Origin: Desulfobacca acetoxidans DSM 11109
GTDB taxonomy: Bacteria > Desulfobacterota > Desulfobaccia > Desulfobaccales > Desulfobaccaceae
Assembly: GCF_000195295.1 (NCBI RefSeq)
Contig: NC_015388.1
Location: forward strand, 1,798,001 to 1,862,000
Reading direction: 5' to 3'
DNA length: 64,000 nt
Position 1 is the stretch's first letter, and each line of letters opens with the position of its first letter. Below are positions 10,361 through 17,235 of this stretch, in pieces. The notes beneath the pieces were generated by a model, which saw only the letters and a list, made by a program, of their open reading frames with translations, had not been told where the DNA came from and did no database searches. The position numbers and the translations under genes were made by a program.

Positions 10361-11065
10361 GTGCAAAAGAATAAAGACGTACCTGTCCAACCTCAGTCCC
10401 TCATCATTTTACGGGGTGTCACCAAAATCTACCACCAGGGTTTGGAGGAGGTTAAGGCTTTACGGGACGTGGACCTCAAGATCGCCGACGGCGAATTTGT
10501 GGCGGTGACCGGCAAGAGCGGCTGCGGCAAAAGCACCCTGCTGCATGTCATCGGCGGCTTGGAGAACGTCTCGGCGGGCAGCATCCAGTTTCAGGGGCGG
10601 GACTTGAGCCGCTTCGACGACGTGCAGCTCACCCGCTACCGCCGGGACCAGGTGGGCATCGTGTTCCAGAGTTTTAACCTGATGCCCTTGCTGACCATCG
10701 TCGAAAATGTAGCCCTGCCCCAGATTCTGCGGGGCACGCCGTCCCACGAGGCCCTGAGGTTGGCCGGGGAATGGCTTAGGCGGGTAAACCTGACGCATCG
10801 GCGCAACCACAAACCCCACCAGGTATCAGGCGGAGAGATGCAGCGGGCGGCCATCGCCCGGGCCCTGATCAACCGGCCGGCCCTGCTGTTGGCGGATGAA
10901 CCGACCGGCAACCTTGATTCGACCCATGCGGCGCAGGTGTTGCAGCTCTTCGCCGAACTGCATCGGCAGGAACGGTTGACGGTGGTCATGGTGACGCACG
11001 CCCTGGAAGCGGCGCAGTTTGCCGACCGCACCCTGAAGATGCAGGATGGACGGTTACATCCATGA
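10361..11065 (+). CDS. ABC transporter ATPase, LolD/MacB type
   Basis: A 234-residue ATPase with Walker A GKSGCGKST, Q-loop FQSFNLMPLL, signature VSGGEMQRAAIARAL, Walker B ALLLADEPTGNLD and the switch histidine in VTHALEAA. The sequence after the Q-loop is typical of LolD/MacB/FtsE proteins, which couple to FtsX-type permeases that extract lipoproteins or move substrates without crossing the inner membrane. The start is GTG at 10361 with a weak ribosome site. Its end overlaps the permease start (ATGA), so the two are coupled. Confidence 0.9.
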   Translation: MQKNKDVPVQPQSLIILRGVTKIYHQGLEEVKALRDVDLKIADGEFVAVTGKSGCGKSTLLHVIGGLENVSAGSIQFQGRDLSRFDDVQLTRYRRDQVGIVFQSFNLMPLLTIVENVALPQILRGTPSHEALRLAGEWLRRVNLTHRRNHKPHQVSGGEMQRAAIARALINRPALLLADEPTGNLDSTHAAQVLQLFAELHRQERLTVVMVTHALEAAQFADRTLKMQDGRLHP

Positions 11066-13620
11066 ATACCTGGATGTTGCGCCTGCCCTTTCGGCATCTT
11101 AGGGAACACCCCGGCCGGAGTCTATTAGGGATTCTTAGCATCGCCTTGGGAACGGCGGTCTATCTTAGCATTGCCCTGGCCTCGAGCAGCGCCTTGAGGA
11201 GTTTTCAGGCCGGAGTGGCGGCCGTAGCCGGCAAGGCCCAACTGCGTCTGCAGAGTCCGGGGGCGGCCCTGGATGAGGTATTGTATGCCCAGGTGCGGCG
11301 GCGGCCGGAGGTGAAGCATGCCGCGCCGGTGGTAGAGACCATGGTGGAGATCAAGGGTCAGGAGTCCTCCTCCGTCGTGCTCTTGGGGATCGACCCCTTT
11401 TCCGAGGGTCCTCTGCGGGATTATCAGTTCCTCTCCGGTTCGGGACTGGATCAGGAGGCCTTCATTAATTTTCTGACCCGCCCGGGTTGGGTGATGCTCA
11501 GCGCCCCTCTGGCGGCGCGGTTGCACCTAGCCCCCGGTGATGGCTTTACCGCCGTGGTGGGGGCTCTGGTCCGGAACCTGCGCGTTGCCGGCATATTTCG
11601 CACCCCTGGCGACCTCTACCCTCTGGAAGGGGCGATAATGCTTATGGATTTGGGGCAGGCGCAGGAGTTGTTGGACCGGGTGGGGCGCCTGGACTATGTG
11701 GACCTTATCGTCGAAGGGGACATTGAAACTGTCGCCGCATTGCTGCGGGGGATTTTACCACCGGGAGTGGAGATTGCCACTCCAGGGTCCCAGGCGGAGT
11801 ATATGGCGGGGTTGGTGGCGGCCTATCGCCTCAACCTGTCGGTGTTGAGCGCTATCGCCCTCTTTGTCGGGATGTTTCTGATCTATCAGTCAGTAACCCT
11901 GTCGGTGGTGCGCCGCCGCCGGGAGATTGGCCTGCTGCGCACCCTGGGGATGACCAGGGGGCAGGTGATGCTGCTTTTCCTGACGGAAGGCATCCTGAGC
12001 GGCGTCCTGGGGGGGCTTGTCGGGCTGGTGCTGGGTGTCGCTCTGGCTCAAGCCGCCTTGGGTATGGTGGCTCAGAGTCTGACCTCACTCTATCAACCGG
12101 CCGCTGCCGGAGAGGTCTGGCTGGAGGGGCGGGTATTGCTGCAGGCCTGGGTCCTGGCGGTCGGGGCGACTTTTCTGGCCTCCTGGGTACCGGCTCGGGA
12201 GGCCTCCCGGACCAAAGTCCGGGCAGTCTGGTACAAAGAGGAATTGGAAGAAAAGCTGGCCGGATGGGCCAGGTCCAGTTTCCTCATGGGGATCGGAGTC
12301 CTGGGGATGGCCGGGATCGCCGCCTTGATCAAGGTAGGCCATGGTATTCCCTGGCCGGCTTTTTTATCGGCCTTTCTGATTCTGTTGGGATTTTCCCTGT
12401 TCACACCCCTGGTGGCCTGGTGGCTGGGATGGCGGTTGTCGCCGATTTTTCGGAGATACCTGGGCTTTGCCGGAGATATGGGTTGCAGGTATCTCTCAGG
12501 GTCGCTGAGTCGGAGTGCGGTGAGCATTGCCGCCCTGTCTACGGCCCTGGGATTGGTGATTGCGGTGGTGGCCATGATCGGTTCCTTCCGGCAGACCGTC
12601 GATGATTGGGTGATGCGATCAATCAGCGGCGACATCTTTTTCGGACCGGCGGTGTTCTCCACGGCCGGCTACGATCAATTCCTGCCGCCGGAGGTGCTGC
12701 GGGACCTGCAGCGGGATGACCGGATTGCCGATCTCTACCATTATCGTTGCGTCCGCCTGCCCTTTAAAGACCGTTATATCCTGGTTATCGGCGGCAGTTT
12801 TGACATCCTGGAACGCCACGGCGGTCTCTGGTTCCTGAGTGGGGATCCGCGTGGGACTGTGGCACGCGCCAGATCAGAAGGCCAGATCCTGGTAACAGAG
12901 CCGTTTGCCGAAACATTCGGGGTAGAGGAGGGGGAGTGGGTGGACCTCCCGACGCCTTCCGGGCCGCAGCGGCTACAGATCGCCGGAGTGTTCTACGACT
13001 ACCGCACCGACGGGGCCGCTGTTTGGATGGACCGGGGCCTGTTCCAGAAATTCTGGCACGACGACCGGTTGAACGCAGTGCGTATCTATCTTAAAGACCA
13101 AGGCCGGACGAAAGAGTTTCAAGCCGACCTGCGGCAGAAATATCAGGGGCGCTATCGGCTGTCGGCGCTGTCGCACCGGGACCTCAAAGACGGTATCCTG
13201 CGCATCTTCGACGAGACCTTTGCCTTGACCTACGCCCTCGAGGGAGTTGCGGTGCTGGTGGCGGTCTTCGGCATTATTACGACCTTTCTGGTGCTGGTCA
13301 TGGAACGGGAGCGGGAGTTAGCCCTGCTACAGGCCCTTGGGGCCTCCCGAGGGCAGATTATGGGCATGGTATTGGTGGAATCGGGATTGGCCAGCCTGCT
13401 GAGCTTTGTTTTAGGCGCCCTGGCCGGGTCGGTCCTGGCCCTGCTGCTCATCCTGGTGATCAATAAACAGGCTTTCGGCTGGACGATCCACCTGTCCTTC
13501 AATCCCGATATCTATTGGCAGAGCCTGTTGCTCGTACTTGTCCTCGGGTTGGCCGCCGGGGCCTATCCTGCCTGGCGGGCCATTAGACCGCACCTAGCGG
13601 TCATTTTAAAGGAAGAATGA
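11062..13620 (+). CDS. ABC transporter permease with two FtsX domains
   Basis: An 852-residue inner-membrane permease. An N-terminal helix (residues 17-45) is followed by a periplasmic domain (about 45-250) and FtsX core 1 (about 260-390, with VRRRREIGLLRTLGMTRGQV). A further helix pair follows, then a second periplasmic domain (about 500-715) and FtsX core 2 (720-850, with MERERELALLQALGASRGQI). This two-repeat form is typical of permeases that work as a single fused subunit with a LolD-type ATPase. Lipoprotein or lipid handling is likely. The TonB receptor gene follows 530 bp downstream on the same strand, with a terminator-like structure in between. Confidence 0.88.
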   Translation: MNTWMLRLPFRHLREHPGRSLLGILSIALGTAVYLSIALASSSALRSFQAGVAAVAGKAQLRLQSPGAALDEVLYAQVRRRPEVKHAAPVVETMVEIKGQESSSVVLLGIDPFSEGPLRDYQFLSGSGLDQEAFINFLTRPGWVMLSAPLAARLHLAPGDGFTAVVGALVRNLRVAGIFRTPGDLYPLEGAIMLMDLGQAQELLDRVGRLDYVDLIVEGDIETVAALLRGILPPGVEIATPGSQAEYMAGLVAAYRLNLSVLSAIALFVGMFLIYQSVTLSVVRRRREIGLLRTLGMTRGQVMLLFLTEGILSGVLGGLVGLVLGVALAQAALGMVAQSLTSLYQPAAAGEVWLEGRVLLQAWVLAVGATFLASWVPAREASRTKVRAVWYKEELEEKLAGWARSSFLMGIGVLGMAGIAALIKVGHGIPWPAFLSAFLILLGFSLFTPLVAWWLGWRLSPIFRRYLGFAGDMGCRYLSGSLSRSAVSIAALSTALGLVIAVVAMIGSFRQTVDDWVMRSISGDIFFGPAVFSTAGYDQFLPPEVLRDLQRDDRIADLYHYRCVRLPFKDRYILVIGGSFDILERHGGLWFLSGDPRGTVARARSEGQILVTEPFAETFGVEEGEWVDLPTPSGPQRLQIAGVFYDYRTDGAAVWMDRGLFQKFWHDDRLNAVRIYLKDQGRTKEFQADLRQKYQGRYRLSALSHRDLKDGILRIFDETFALTYALEGVAVLVAVFGIITTFLVLVMERERELALLQALGASRGQIMGMVLVESGLASLLSFVLGALAGSVLALLLILVINKQAFGWTIHLSFNPDIYWQSLLLVLVLGLAAGAYPAWRAIRPHLAVILKEE

Positions 13621-13946: not shown

Positions 13947-13988
13947 GAATAAAGCCCAAGGAATAGTATTCAACTTAATTGAGAAAGA

Positions 13989-14024
13989 GGGCAGGCCGCT
14001 CCGGCCAAGGTTATCGGCCTGCCC
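13989..14024. other. Strong inverted repeat in the receptor leader
   Basis: GGGCAGGCCG (13989-13998) and CGGCCTGCCC (14015-14024) are perfect 10-bp inverted repeats with a 16-base loop and no T-run. It could be an mRNA stabilising structure or a protein binding site. Confidence 0.5.
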
Positions 14025-14149
14025 CCAAGGATGTCGTCGAACGTCACACCCTCATCACATTTGTACCATTTGCGGGGAATTAGGGCAATGGGGGCAGTGA
14101 CGCACGGAAGAACTTTTTTTGCCTTAAAAAAAAGGGGGGGGTGCGTTTC

Positions 14150-16255
14150 ATGGCTCTCAGAGGATTTATATTGGGGTTATGGCTAATATTTCTGGTTATC
14201 CCCGTAGCGGCGGCGGGGGCCGAAACAATGCCGGAAACCCAGGAGGCCGAAGAACAGTCGACCGAAGCGGTAAAATTGGAGGAGATCACCATCATGGCGC
14301 CGCAGCCGGGAGTGGAGATCACCACGGACAAGACTATTATCCGCATGGATCAGTTCAAGAAGCCGGGGTACGTCCGCACCCTGGAGGACGTGCTGCAGGA
14401 GATCGGCGGTATTGATGTGTTGCGGAGTAATGCCATGATGGCCAGCCCCGGCGATGAGGTGGCCATCCGGGGGTTGAGCGAAGGTCGGCTGGTGGTGGAG
14501 ATCGACGGTCGCCGGATCAATCATACCGGCCAGATGGGGAGGTACATCGTTGATTGGTCTACTCTGACCGTTGATGATATCGAACGGGTGGAGATTATCC
14601 GCGGGGCGCATTCGGTGCTCCATCCTTTCGCCATTGGCGGGGTTATCAATATTATTACCAAAAAAGGAAAAAAGACCGACCAGTTAAAGCCCGATGTCGG
14701 TATTTCGTCCGGTTACTCGTCCTTCAATACCTATTTCAATCAGGGGTCGGTGGATGGCGGGATAGCCAACCTCGTGGGCTACCATTTTTCCGGCAGCCGG
14801 CAATCCACTGACGGGTATTTGCGCAACAATTTTCAGTGGAACAACAATTATGCCGGAGGTCTGCAGTTCTTTCTGCCGTTTGAATCTACCCTCTGGCTAG
14901 GGGCTCGGTACAGCAAGGTCCAATACGGTTTTCCGGTGGTCAACGACCCGACCCGGACGGATTTTGATCCGAGTTATCCTCCCTTTCTATCTACTGCCGA
15001 TGCGTTGCGCCACCTGCCCACCGCTATCCAGCTTCCCGGCGAACCCATCCCACAGTGGAATAAAGATACCTACTATCTGGATCTCATCCTGACTGCGCCG
15101 CTGGGTCCTGGGACCGCCAAGGTACACGCTTACACCACCAACGGCCGCCGGGATATCCATTACTATCAGGTGCAGGCCGGGAAAAATGTCTTCACCAACG
15201 TCGATACCCGTGACGTAACCGAGGGAATTTTGGCGGAATACCGGGATATCAAGCTGTTCGAGCGAAATTATCTTAAAGACTATCTGACCGTCGGATTTGA
15301 TTACCAATTATTAGGACAGCCGCCGTCGAATCCGATGATCTATATAGTAAAATCAGCTTATTTGCAAGATGTGGTCAAGCTGTGGGATAAAGTGACCTTT
15401 ACCGGCGGGGTGCGCTACTATAACATTCAGATGGACACCTACTATTCCTGGTTTGAACAGGGTCAGCCGGCCCCGGTCTTTCCCACTTCAGGTAAGGAAC
15501 AACGAGAATCGGACTGGTTCCCGAGCTTCAAACTGGACGTGCAGGCCACCCCGGACACGGCGTTGTATGCCGCGGTCAGCCGGGCGTTGCGCCTGCCCTG
15601 CCCCTGAGACTACTACTGGTGGGCGCGGTGCGCCTCCTTGGATAATCCGGTGTTAAGACCGGAGACGGCGTGGGAATATGAAACCGGTATCATTCAGAAC
15701 TTTAAACCCCTTACCTTAAGGAGCACGTTTTATTACTACGATATCCAAAATTTTATGAACGACAGTGGTATTACCTCGCCGGGAACCGGCCTGGGCAGCA
15801 ACTGTTTGTACAACATCCCGAGCGTCAAGATGTACGGGGTAGAGTTGGAGGCGGCCTTGGACTTTAAAAACCGCTTCCGGGGCATGGTCTCTTACAGCTA
15901 TCAGGGGTTTGACGCCACTTATTCTCCTTTTCAACAGGACTGGTCGTACTATCTGCCACTCATTTGCCCTAAACACAAAATCAAGATGATGGGTCGGGCC
16001 AGGCTTTGGGAAGACGGCTGGCTTCAGGCCGATGTACGCTTCCTGAGTGCTCGTGAAGTCCAAAAGCATGCCACCGGCAAGCTTGGGGCCTATGCTACTT
16101 TGGACTTGGGTTTTGAGCAAAAGTTCCGCTTCTGGCAGCAGGAGTTGTCCCTCAATGTCTTTGGCAACAACCTGACGGGTACCCGCTATCAGGAAATCCA
16201 GGGCTACTATATGCCCCGGCAGACCTTCGGATTTACTATTGGAACCAAATTTTAA
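14150..16255 (+). CDS. TonB-dependent outer-membrane receptor with one in-frame TGA (selenocysteine or nonsense)
   Basis: A signal peptide (ALRGFILGLWLIFLVIPVAA) is followed by a short linker, a TonB box region (VKLEEITIMA), a plug domain (about 60-180, with EVAIRGLSEGRLVVEIDGRR and ERVEIIRGAHSVLHPFAIGG) and a beta-barrel ending in the aromatic GFTIGTKF. At 15605-15607 a TGA interrupts the frame at residue 486. The same frame then continues for 216 residues with normal barrel sequence (DNPVLRPETAWEYETG), giving a usual total of about 701. The TGA context is Cys-Pro-TGA-Asp-Tyr-Tyr-Trp-Trp. A GC hairpin with a GGT loop lies 19 bases downstream. If selenocysteine is not inserted, this is a broken gene. 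Start: ATG 14150; GTG 14141 is an alternative. The substrate may be a tetrapyrrole or metal chelate, judged by the next gene only. Confidence 0.75.
15605..15638 (+). promoter_or_regulatory. Candidate bacterial SECIS element following the TGA
   Basis: After the TGA (15605-15607), GGCGC (15622-15626) and GCGCC (15630-15634) pair perfectly around the loop GGT (15627-15629); G-U and G-C pairs extend the stem to 15618/15638 with one mismatch. The loop starts 19 bases after the TGA, close to the position of the GGUC loop in E. coli fdhF. Bacterial SECIS models require a short apical loop with G in the first two positions at about this distance. GC-rich DNA can form such hairpins by chance. Confidence 0.45.
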
Positions 16256-16281: not shown

Positions 16282-17235
16282 ATGCAATTGCGGTTTCGTT
16301 TGAGTTTTACGGTATTGCTTGGATGTCTGATGTTGTTGGTCGGAGCAATCTCCGCTCATTCCGGTTCCATCAAGCCTGGGACTTTTTATGTCGTAGGCGT
16401 CGGTCCCGCCGGTCCGGAGCATACCACGCTGCGGGCCTTGGAAGTCATCAAGGGGGTGGACTACATCCTCTGCGAAGATAAGATGGTGGAGCGGTTTAAG
16501 CCTTACGTGAAAGATAAGCCTGTTCTGGCCGACCCCTGGAAGGGCATGTGGGATTATAAGGGCAAGCCTTGGGAAGAACTTCCCAAGATGAAGCTAGAAG
16601 AAAAACGGGCCTTTCAGGAAGAGCGGATCAGAATCCGGGAGGAGATTGTCCGCCAGATAAAGGAGAAATTAGCTCAAGGTAAAACCGTGGCCCTGCTGGA
16701 CAGCGGCGATCCCTGCCTCTTCGGGCCATCCCATTGGTTTAGTGAAGGTTTTGAGCCGCAACAGGTAGAGATCATTCCGGGAGTGGGGGCCTTTACGGCG
16801 GCCATGGCGGCCCTGAAAAAATCCAGCATTCCGGCCTACGACACGCGTTTTGTGATGCAGACCTCGCCGTATTTTTTCACCGGCAGCGGCAAGGAAATGC
16901 TCGGCGAACTGGCCAAGTATCCGATTAGCATGGTGTTTTATATGGGCATCAGGGAGCTTCCCAATCTCGTGCCGCTGCTGCGGCAATCCCATCCCGGAGA
17001 TCTGCCCATCGCCGTAGTCTATAATGCCGGCTATCCCGATAAAGAGAAGGTGGTCAAGGGCACCCTCGATACTATCCTGGAGCAGGTGGCCGGTGAAAAG
17101 GAAAAATGGATGGGACTGATCATCGTGGGACGCTGCCTGGAGGGCAAACCTTACCGCACCCGGGTGGAGAACCTGGTGGGCTATCAGGATGTCAAGAAGT
17201 CCAAACAGTCTGACAGCACGGTGCCAAAACCATAA
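16282..17235 (+). CDS. Tetrapyrrole methylase-fold protein with N-terminal signal peptide
   Basis: A 317-residue protein. Residues 1-27 look like a Sec signal peptide (RFRLSFTVLLGCLMLLVGAI, then SAHS). The rest matches the SAM-dependent tetrapyrrole (precorrin/siroheme) methylase fold: the glycine-rich start VVGVGPAGPEHTTLRALEVI, the motif LLDSGDPCLFGPSHW, and IIPGVGAFTAAMAALKK. Normal enzymes of this fold (CobA, CobM/CbiF, CobI) are cytoplasmic and have no signal peptide. An insert with many Lys and Glu (about residues 85-125) is also unusual. It lies 26 bp after the TonB receptor, so it is probably cotranscribed. Because SAM is not expected in the periplasm, it may bind rather than methylate a tetrapyrrole, or be a cytoplasmic-membrane-anchored form. 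Confidence 0.8.
   Translation: MQLRFRLSFTVLLGCLMLLVGAISAHSGSIKPGTFYVVGVGPAGPEHTTLRALEVIKGVDYILCEDKMVERFKPYVKDKPVLADPWKGMWDYKGKPWEELPKMKLEEKRAFQEERIRIREEIVRQIKEKLAQGKTVALLDSGDPCLFGPSHWFSEGFEPQQVEIIPGVGAFTAAMAALKKSSIPAYDTRFVMQTSPYFFTGSGKEMLGELAKYPISMVFYMGIRELPNLVPLLRQSHPGDLPIAVVYNAGYPDKEKVVKGTLDTILEQVAGEKEKWMGLIIVGRCLEGKPYRTRVENLVGYQDVKKSKQSDSTVPKP

Follow-up and report, generated by a model that had tools for sequence, protein, structure and literature searches.

A putative selenocysteine-containing TonB-dependent receptor of Desulfobacca acetoxidans with a possible role in soft-metal uptake

Does the single in-frame TGA in a TonB-dependent receptor gene of Desulfobacca acetoxidans DSM 11109 mark a damaged gene, a stop that the cell uses, or a codon for selenocysteine (Sec), and in the last case what would Sec do in an outer-membrane receptor? 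The gene lies in the window analyzed here, a stretch of 64,000 nucleotides from a complete genome of 3,282,536 bases. Direct reading gives a frame that begins at ATG 14150, stays open for 485 codons, meets the TGA at 15605–15607 and runs on for 215 codons to TAA 16253–16255. An earlier note on this DNA had described one gene with one TGA, the motif RLPCP-TGA-DYYWWARC and a region of interest at 15605–15638, all of which hold on direct reading, as do the 485 residues that it counted before the TGA; its 216 residues after the TGA are corrected to 215. The start at ATG 14150 was chosen by alignment and by the spacing of the ribosome-binding site in relatives (an upstream GTG, at 14141, shares the frame), and the read-through protein matches the Pfam plug (PF07715) and barrel (PF00593) families. 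The parts of the gene are as follows.

14150–16255, forward strand: TonB-dependent receptor, whole read-through gene with a single in-frame TGA at 15605–15607
14150–15604, forward strand: receptor part 5' of the Sec codon, with signal peptide, plug and barrel strands 1–13 (Pfam Plug and TonB_dep_Rec_b-barrel; NF049947)
15605–15607, forward strand: TGA predicted to be read as Sec, residue 486 counted from ATG 14150 and 489 from GTG 14141 (invariant alignment column)
15608–16255, forward strand: receptor part 3' of the Sec codon, from loop L7 to strand 22 and the terminal Phe, then TAA (dN/dS, alignment, structure model)
15618–15637, forward strand: SECIS-type hairpin GG-(bulged U)-GGGCGC / GGT loop / GCGCCTCC (folding, control frequency, synonymous constraint)

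Relatives were sought across the class (29 genomes) and the phylum (395 genomes) and range from 28 to 84% identity; a related-locus search of genome contigs yielded four relatives only, the named close ones being Desulfobacca MAGs. Every relative that covers the site (16 of 16, from several families of the phylum) has one in-frame stop, which is always TGA and always in the same column, so that the search for homologues with TGA suggested in the earlier note was borne out. Twelve of these relatives are of the PCPU type (LPCP-U-DYYWWARCA) and four of the CU type ([VI]PGC-U-D); with the window gene included, all 13 PCPU-type genes examined and all 4 of the CU type carry this TGA. Among the relatives searched, we found no PCPU-type receptor with Cys in place of Sec. 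Distant paralogues without Sec have Thr-x-Pro-Glu in place of the Cys-Pro-Sec-Asp of the Sec type, just as in the line RxPTxPEYYWW that the earlier note gave for related receptors.

Selection on the gene was followed on both sides of the TGA. Against the nearest relatives, dN/dS is about 0.05–0.10 in the part 3' of the TGA and 0.07–0.17 in the part 5' of it, figures that are rough because dS is near saturation; they indicate that purifying selection is acting on both sides. Across the 13 codon-aligned PCPU genes (window gene included), synonymous-codon identity is highest, among 638 ten-codon windows, in the one beginning with the TGA, at 0.832 compared with 0.476 overall; the hairpin codons GAC, GCG, CGG and TGC are identical in all 13. 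The SECIS-like hairpin proposed in the earlier note thus coincides, together with the TGA, with the strongest synonymous constraint in the gene. One substitution could create a single TGA in a single sequence, and the same note had considered a nonsense mutation or a sequence error quite possible. This is refuted by the recurrence of the TGA at the same site across several families, in genomes sequenced independently of one another, and the purifying selection 3' of the TGA and the constraint at the hairpin also speak against it; the probability that the TGA reflects a nonsense mutation, a sequencing error or a pseudogene is negligible, and we rejected this explanation. The sole decayed copy looks unlike the window gene: in G015 (L028, L070; G015:C92) a Sec receptor is reduced to short N-terminal fragments in two frames, with a leader hairpin (described below) still in place.

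The hairpin itself consists of 6 bp, a bulged U and then 2 bp, and its apical loop lies 19 nt downstream of the TGA, which agrees with the GGCGC/GCGCC stem, GGT loop and 19-base distance first noticed. To the loop distance we applied the spacing rule for bacterial SECIS elements as used in bSECISearch. Folding stability is only moderate (z about −0.4 to −1.1), and a comparable hairpin (18–20 nt, G early in the loop, dG <= −9) follows 1.3% of 700 TGA triplets sampled from the window. Because the thermodynamics of the hairpin alone are unremarkable, the argument for Sec rests on conservation: a hairpin with its loop 18–20 nt past the TGA is present in all of the receptors and also in the Sec-containing binding proteins described below, with stem sequences that differ between the types. 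An Rfam scan of the hairpin matched no family.

The genome carries selA, selB, selC (tRNA-Sec) and selD, all above curated cut-offs, so the Sec machinery that had been named as a check is complete. Given the conserved TGA, this machinery and the constraint on the hairpin, UGA codon 486 is almost certainly decoded as Sec by means of SelA, SelB, SelC and SelD together with the downstream hairpin, as comparative genomics indicates and as the earlier note had suspected. The selD gene of this genome (L079, G000:C1:557612-558529) has an in-frame TGA of its own and belongs to the known kind of selenophosphate synthetase that contains Sec. In G251, the Sec receptor gene (L064:6304-8391) has as neighbors a gene for tRNA-Sec and an ORF that resembles selB, the latter recognized by eye only.

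Comparison with NCBIfam (release 20) places the receptor in a catalogued family: it matches NF049947, “TonB-dependent receptor, PCPU motif-type”, over its whole length at 1139.9 bits, far above the cut-off of 800. The name of this model spells the same Pro-Cys-Pro-Sec motif, no sequence difference separates the two, and the model carries no function. NCBIfam holds four models of Sec TonB receptors, NF049947 (PCPU), NF049946 (CU), NF049944 (PUIUD) and NF049945 (FCYXU), and the window protein falls under the cut-offs of the last three. In addition, the deep-Sep study of March 2025 (PMC12013277) included among its predictions a Sec TonB receptor from Desulfosarcina sp. BuS5, which a 2026 review (PMC13188914) assigns to the FCYXU type. 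The statement in the earlier note that no selenocysteine TonB receptor had been described is therefore out of date; what is new in the present analysis is the placement of Sec in loop L7, the conserved operon, the covarying RNA hairpin upstream, and the co-occurrence of CU-type receptors with a Sec binding protein. A literature search on the PCPU and PUIUD motif names returned unrelated matches only. Assignment to the haem, B12 or copper receptor models was rejected, as the window protein is under the cut-off of each: 124.4 bits vs. 316.85 for the haem/haemoglobin receptor model TIGR01785, 69.7 vs. 599.7 for the BtuB model TIGR01779, and 25.5 vs. 472.45 for the copper receptor model TIGR01778.

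An AlphaFold model built with 16 sequences (mean pLDDT 78, pTM 0.82) predicts a 22-strand barrel with a plug. By our own count of strands and loops on the secondary structure of the model, Sec (model residue 485) is part of a short helix within the loop that joins strands 13 (469–479) and 14 (505–517); we predict, with moderate confidence (pLDDT about 67), that Sec486 sits in extracellular loop L7. The model also bears on the possibility that the UGA serves as a regulated stop, or encodes another amino acid, and that the product is mainly the 485-residue protein. Sec incorporation is usually inefficient, and some truncated product is to be expected on that account; a truncated receptor, however, would lose predicted strands 14–22 and the terminal Phe of the barrel, and both the hairpin of SECIS type and the full set of Sec genes are in keeping with Sec. 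We consider this alternative very improbable; the gene most probably encodes the full-length 22-strand outer-membrane receptor, with UGA 486 read as Sec.

Cys484 and Cys494 of L7, Cys552 of L8, Sec486, and His154 and His158 of the plug (numbered from ATG 14150) are invariant in the PCPU type. Among the solved structures listed as matches, the nearest are BtuB (Z 34.4), OprC (33.0) and ChuA (32.7); the ranking does not identify the ligand because all matches are ordinary TonB receptors. Two comparisons are nevertheless instructive. OprC, likewise a 22-strand TonB receptor, holds its soft metal on the outer side in a CxxxM-HxM site (PMC8610252, PMC11836926); it shares 15% identity with the window protein, has no Sec and imports copper. 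Haem receptors have a conserved loop-7 His between FRAP-type and NPNL-type boxes that is required for haem use, and in ShuA/ChuA, HemR and HasR (Z 31–33) the functional His lies in the same L7 region. In the window protein the stretch between the FRAP-like and NPxL-like boxes reads LRLP-CPU-DYYWWARC-ASLDNPVL and is free of His: the haem receptors offer His ligands where the window protein offers Cys and Sec, and the latter is far below the haem-receptor model.

We propose that the cluster of Cys and Sec residues in L7 and L8, at the barrel mouth, would capture a metal ion or metal complex as a soft-metal ligand, and that the captured complex would be imported by TonB-driven transport; the cluster would then be the counterpart of the Cys/Met/His copper site of OprC and of the loop-7 His of haem receptors. 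The reading as a whole, a Sec-containing PCPU receptor whose Cys/Sec cluster serves soft-metal uptake, has in our estimate a probability of roughly 85%. Its most specific part, that the cluster acts as a soft-metal ligand for import with nickel, cobalt or a metallo-tetrapyrrole as the likeliest cargo, is by analogy about an even bet. A redox-active Sec would be a different solution, in which a Cys484-Pro-Sec486 selenenylsulfide reduces the ligand, exchanges with it or gates the loop. Cys-x-Sec is a common redox pair and two further Cys residues (494 and 552) are invariant; on the other hand, the pair is placed by the model in an outer-membrane loop, with neither a thioredoxin fold nor an obvious electron donor, and a number of other Sec-containing transport proteins are considered likely metal binders (PMC13188914). 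We regard a redox role as unlikely, at perhaps half the weight of metal ligation.

The neighbors of the receptor gene provide indications of the cargo. The next gene is as follows.

16282–17235, forward strand: tetrapyrrole-methylase-family protein (PF00590, 136.5 bits) with an apparent signal peptide

This protein reaches no NCBIfam cut-off. A homologue adjoins the Sec receptor in 12/13 PCPU neighborhoods; in the remaining one, G206, a simple ORF caller took another frame. In eight genomes a DUF4198-type protein is encoded beside the PCPU receptor, with His as the first residue after the likely cleavage site (signal peptides of the neighbor proteins were judged by eye). DUF4198 proteins bind Ni2+ through an N-terminal His, and their gene neighbors include TonB receptors and NikR (PMC12537917). 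DUF4198 is absent from the operon of the window receptor and present elsewhere in the same genome. Alongside the receptor, the proposed uptake system would include the secreted protein of the tetrapyrrole-methylase family and, in the majority of relatives, DUF4198; nickel or cobalt is favored because of DUF4198 in the operons of relatives. A search for NikR boxes upstream of the receptor gave best sites with 3–5 mismatches, which are not convincing, and a literature search on tetrapyrrole methylase with TonB and nickel found nothing. The MacB/FtsX-type ABC genes upstream (10361–13620) were excluded from the system, as they are not conserved beside the receptor in relatives.

Methylase-family proteins with apparent signal peptides (16282–17235; L055, L056, L098) occur sometimes twice in one neighborhood, and a family that needs SAM is odd outside the cytoplasm. 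The secreted protein may act as a binding protein.

A metallo-tetrapyrrole is favored because of the loop position of Sec and the methylase neighbor. In the most definite form of the soft-metal proposal, the receptor would take up a haem- or corrin-type metallo-tetrapyrrole with Sec as the axial metal ligand in place of the loop-7 His. Sec lies in L7 between the FRAP-like and NPxL-like boxes, the gene next to the receptor is of the tetrapyrrole-methylase family, in G346 and G206 the neighborhood continues with a BtuC/FecCD-type permease, and the haem-receptor profile does match, though far under its cut-off. Such boxes, however, are found across TonB receptors generally, the haem and B12 receptor models all score under their cut-offs, and Rfam detected no cobalamin riboswitch or other known riboswitch upstream of the receptor. 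Taken on its own, this specific version is improbable, with odds of some one in four; the broader soft-metal reading accommodates other cargoes as well.

A second operon of the same genome (G000:C1:1957658-1963690; L012, L098) encodes a receptor without Sec (T-L-P-E at the Sec site), a secreted TP_methylase, DUF4198 and an amino-acid-permease-like protein, and G016 has the same type of non-Sec operon, preceded by the leader RNA. Since operons of this type also function with receptors that lack Sec, the operon does not depend on Sec for its function, and the Sec receptor appears to be the selenium version of a receptor from an existing uptake system.

The leader is a further conserved feature of the locus.

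13986–14026, forward strand: candidate structured RNA leader with a 12-bp covarying stem, an inner CC/GG pair and a GCCAA-containing loop (recurrence and covariation)

This hairpin lies about 125–165 nt upstream of the start codon and recurs 5' of PCPU receptors in G000, G026, G027, G005, G346, G206, G251 and G291; it was not found in G024, G194 and G253. A model of seven copies (R1) scores 55 bits at the window site and gave independent matches in three further genomes: in G015 ahead of the decayed receptor, and in G016 and G028 ahead of receptors that lack Sec. In an alignment of nine sequences, 87.8% of cells pair and 5/14 pairs are changed on both sides, counts that are inflated because the alignment was fitted to the structure; the covariation score was reached by 0/500 shuffles, and slid registers are far worse. 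The alignments cover the hairpin only, MAFFT alignments of long upstream regions being too loose to show structure. Rfam scans of the leader and the neighborhoods matched no leader family and elsewhere found only tRNAs, a tRNA-Sec and a fluoride riboswitch; we put forward 13986–14026 as a candidate cis-regulatory RNA outside Rfam. The fluoride riboswitch aptamer match, in G005 (L058:7063-7138), apparently has no relation to the receptor.

The CU-type receptors of G229, G233, G271 and G156 form a sister system. Their Sec aligns in the same column as that of the window receptor, but Cys is adjacent to Sec (GCU), there is no counterpart of Cys494 or Cys552, and the gene neighbors are others: an ABC transporter accompanies the receptor, with a double-cubane-type reductase encoded close by in three of the four genomes, and the gene for the binding protein of the transporter carries a single in-frame TGA (U-D-P) followed by a hairpin. 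These NMT1/SsuA-type ABC substrate-binding proteins (U-D-P ... TMLE) lie at the following sites.

L068:10528-11490, reverse strand: binding protein with in-frame TGA
L067:4257-5366, forward strand: binding protein with in-frame TGA
L069:10625-11587, reverse strand: binding protein with in-frame TGA
L108:3947-4924, reverse strand: binding protein with in-frame TGA

A Sec binding protein of this kind (E <= 1e-35) occurs in 4/395 genomes, exactly those with CU-type receptors, and none was found in the window genome. It reaches no NCBIfam cut-off; the nearest selenoprotein model is SaoX, at 55–60 bits vs. a cut-off of 300. SaoX is part of the SAO (Sec-assisted organometallic) system (PMC13188914), which likewise employs selenoproteins in transport. 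The binding protein of the CU operons is a remote relative of SaoX with the same U-x-P motif; it is far under the SaoX cut-off, and the two systems are likened through SaoX alone among the Sao proteins. The co-occurrence of CU receptor and Sec binding protein supports a general role of Sec in the transport of metals or organometals. We tentatively suggest, with less assurance than for the metal ligand itself, that Sec TonB receptors could be the outer-membrane arms of a wider Sec-assisted metal uptake in this phylum, the CU type acting with a Sec-containing ABC binding protein and the PCPU type using its loop-7 Cys/Sec cluster for a soft metal or metallo-tetrapyrrole under a ligand-sensing RNA leader.

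If the window receptor is what strong comparative evidence suggests, the bacterium would place selenium in a receptor for nutrient or metal uptake; selenium chemistry would then reach the cell surface, by way of an extracellular loop of an outer-membrane transporter, which would hint at a nutrient or metal that sulfur ligands do not bind well enough. Gene callers split such genes in two, so that Sec receptors can easily be overlooked. A search for the substrate can start from the conserved operon, from the leader RNA and from the pairing of Sec receptor and Sec binding protein.
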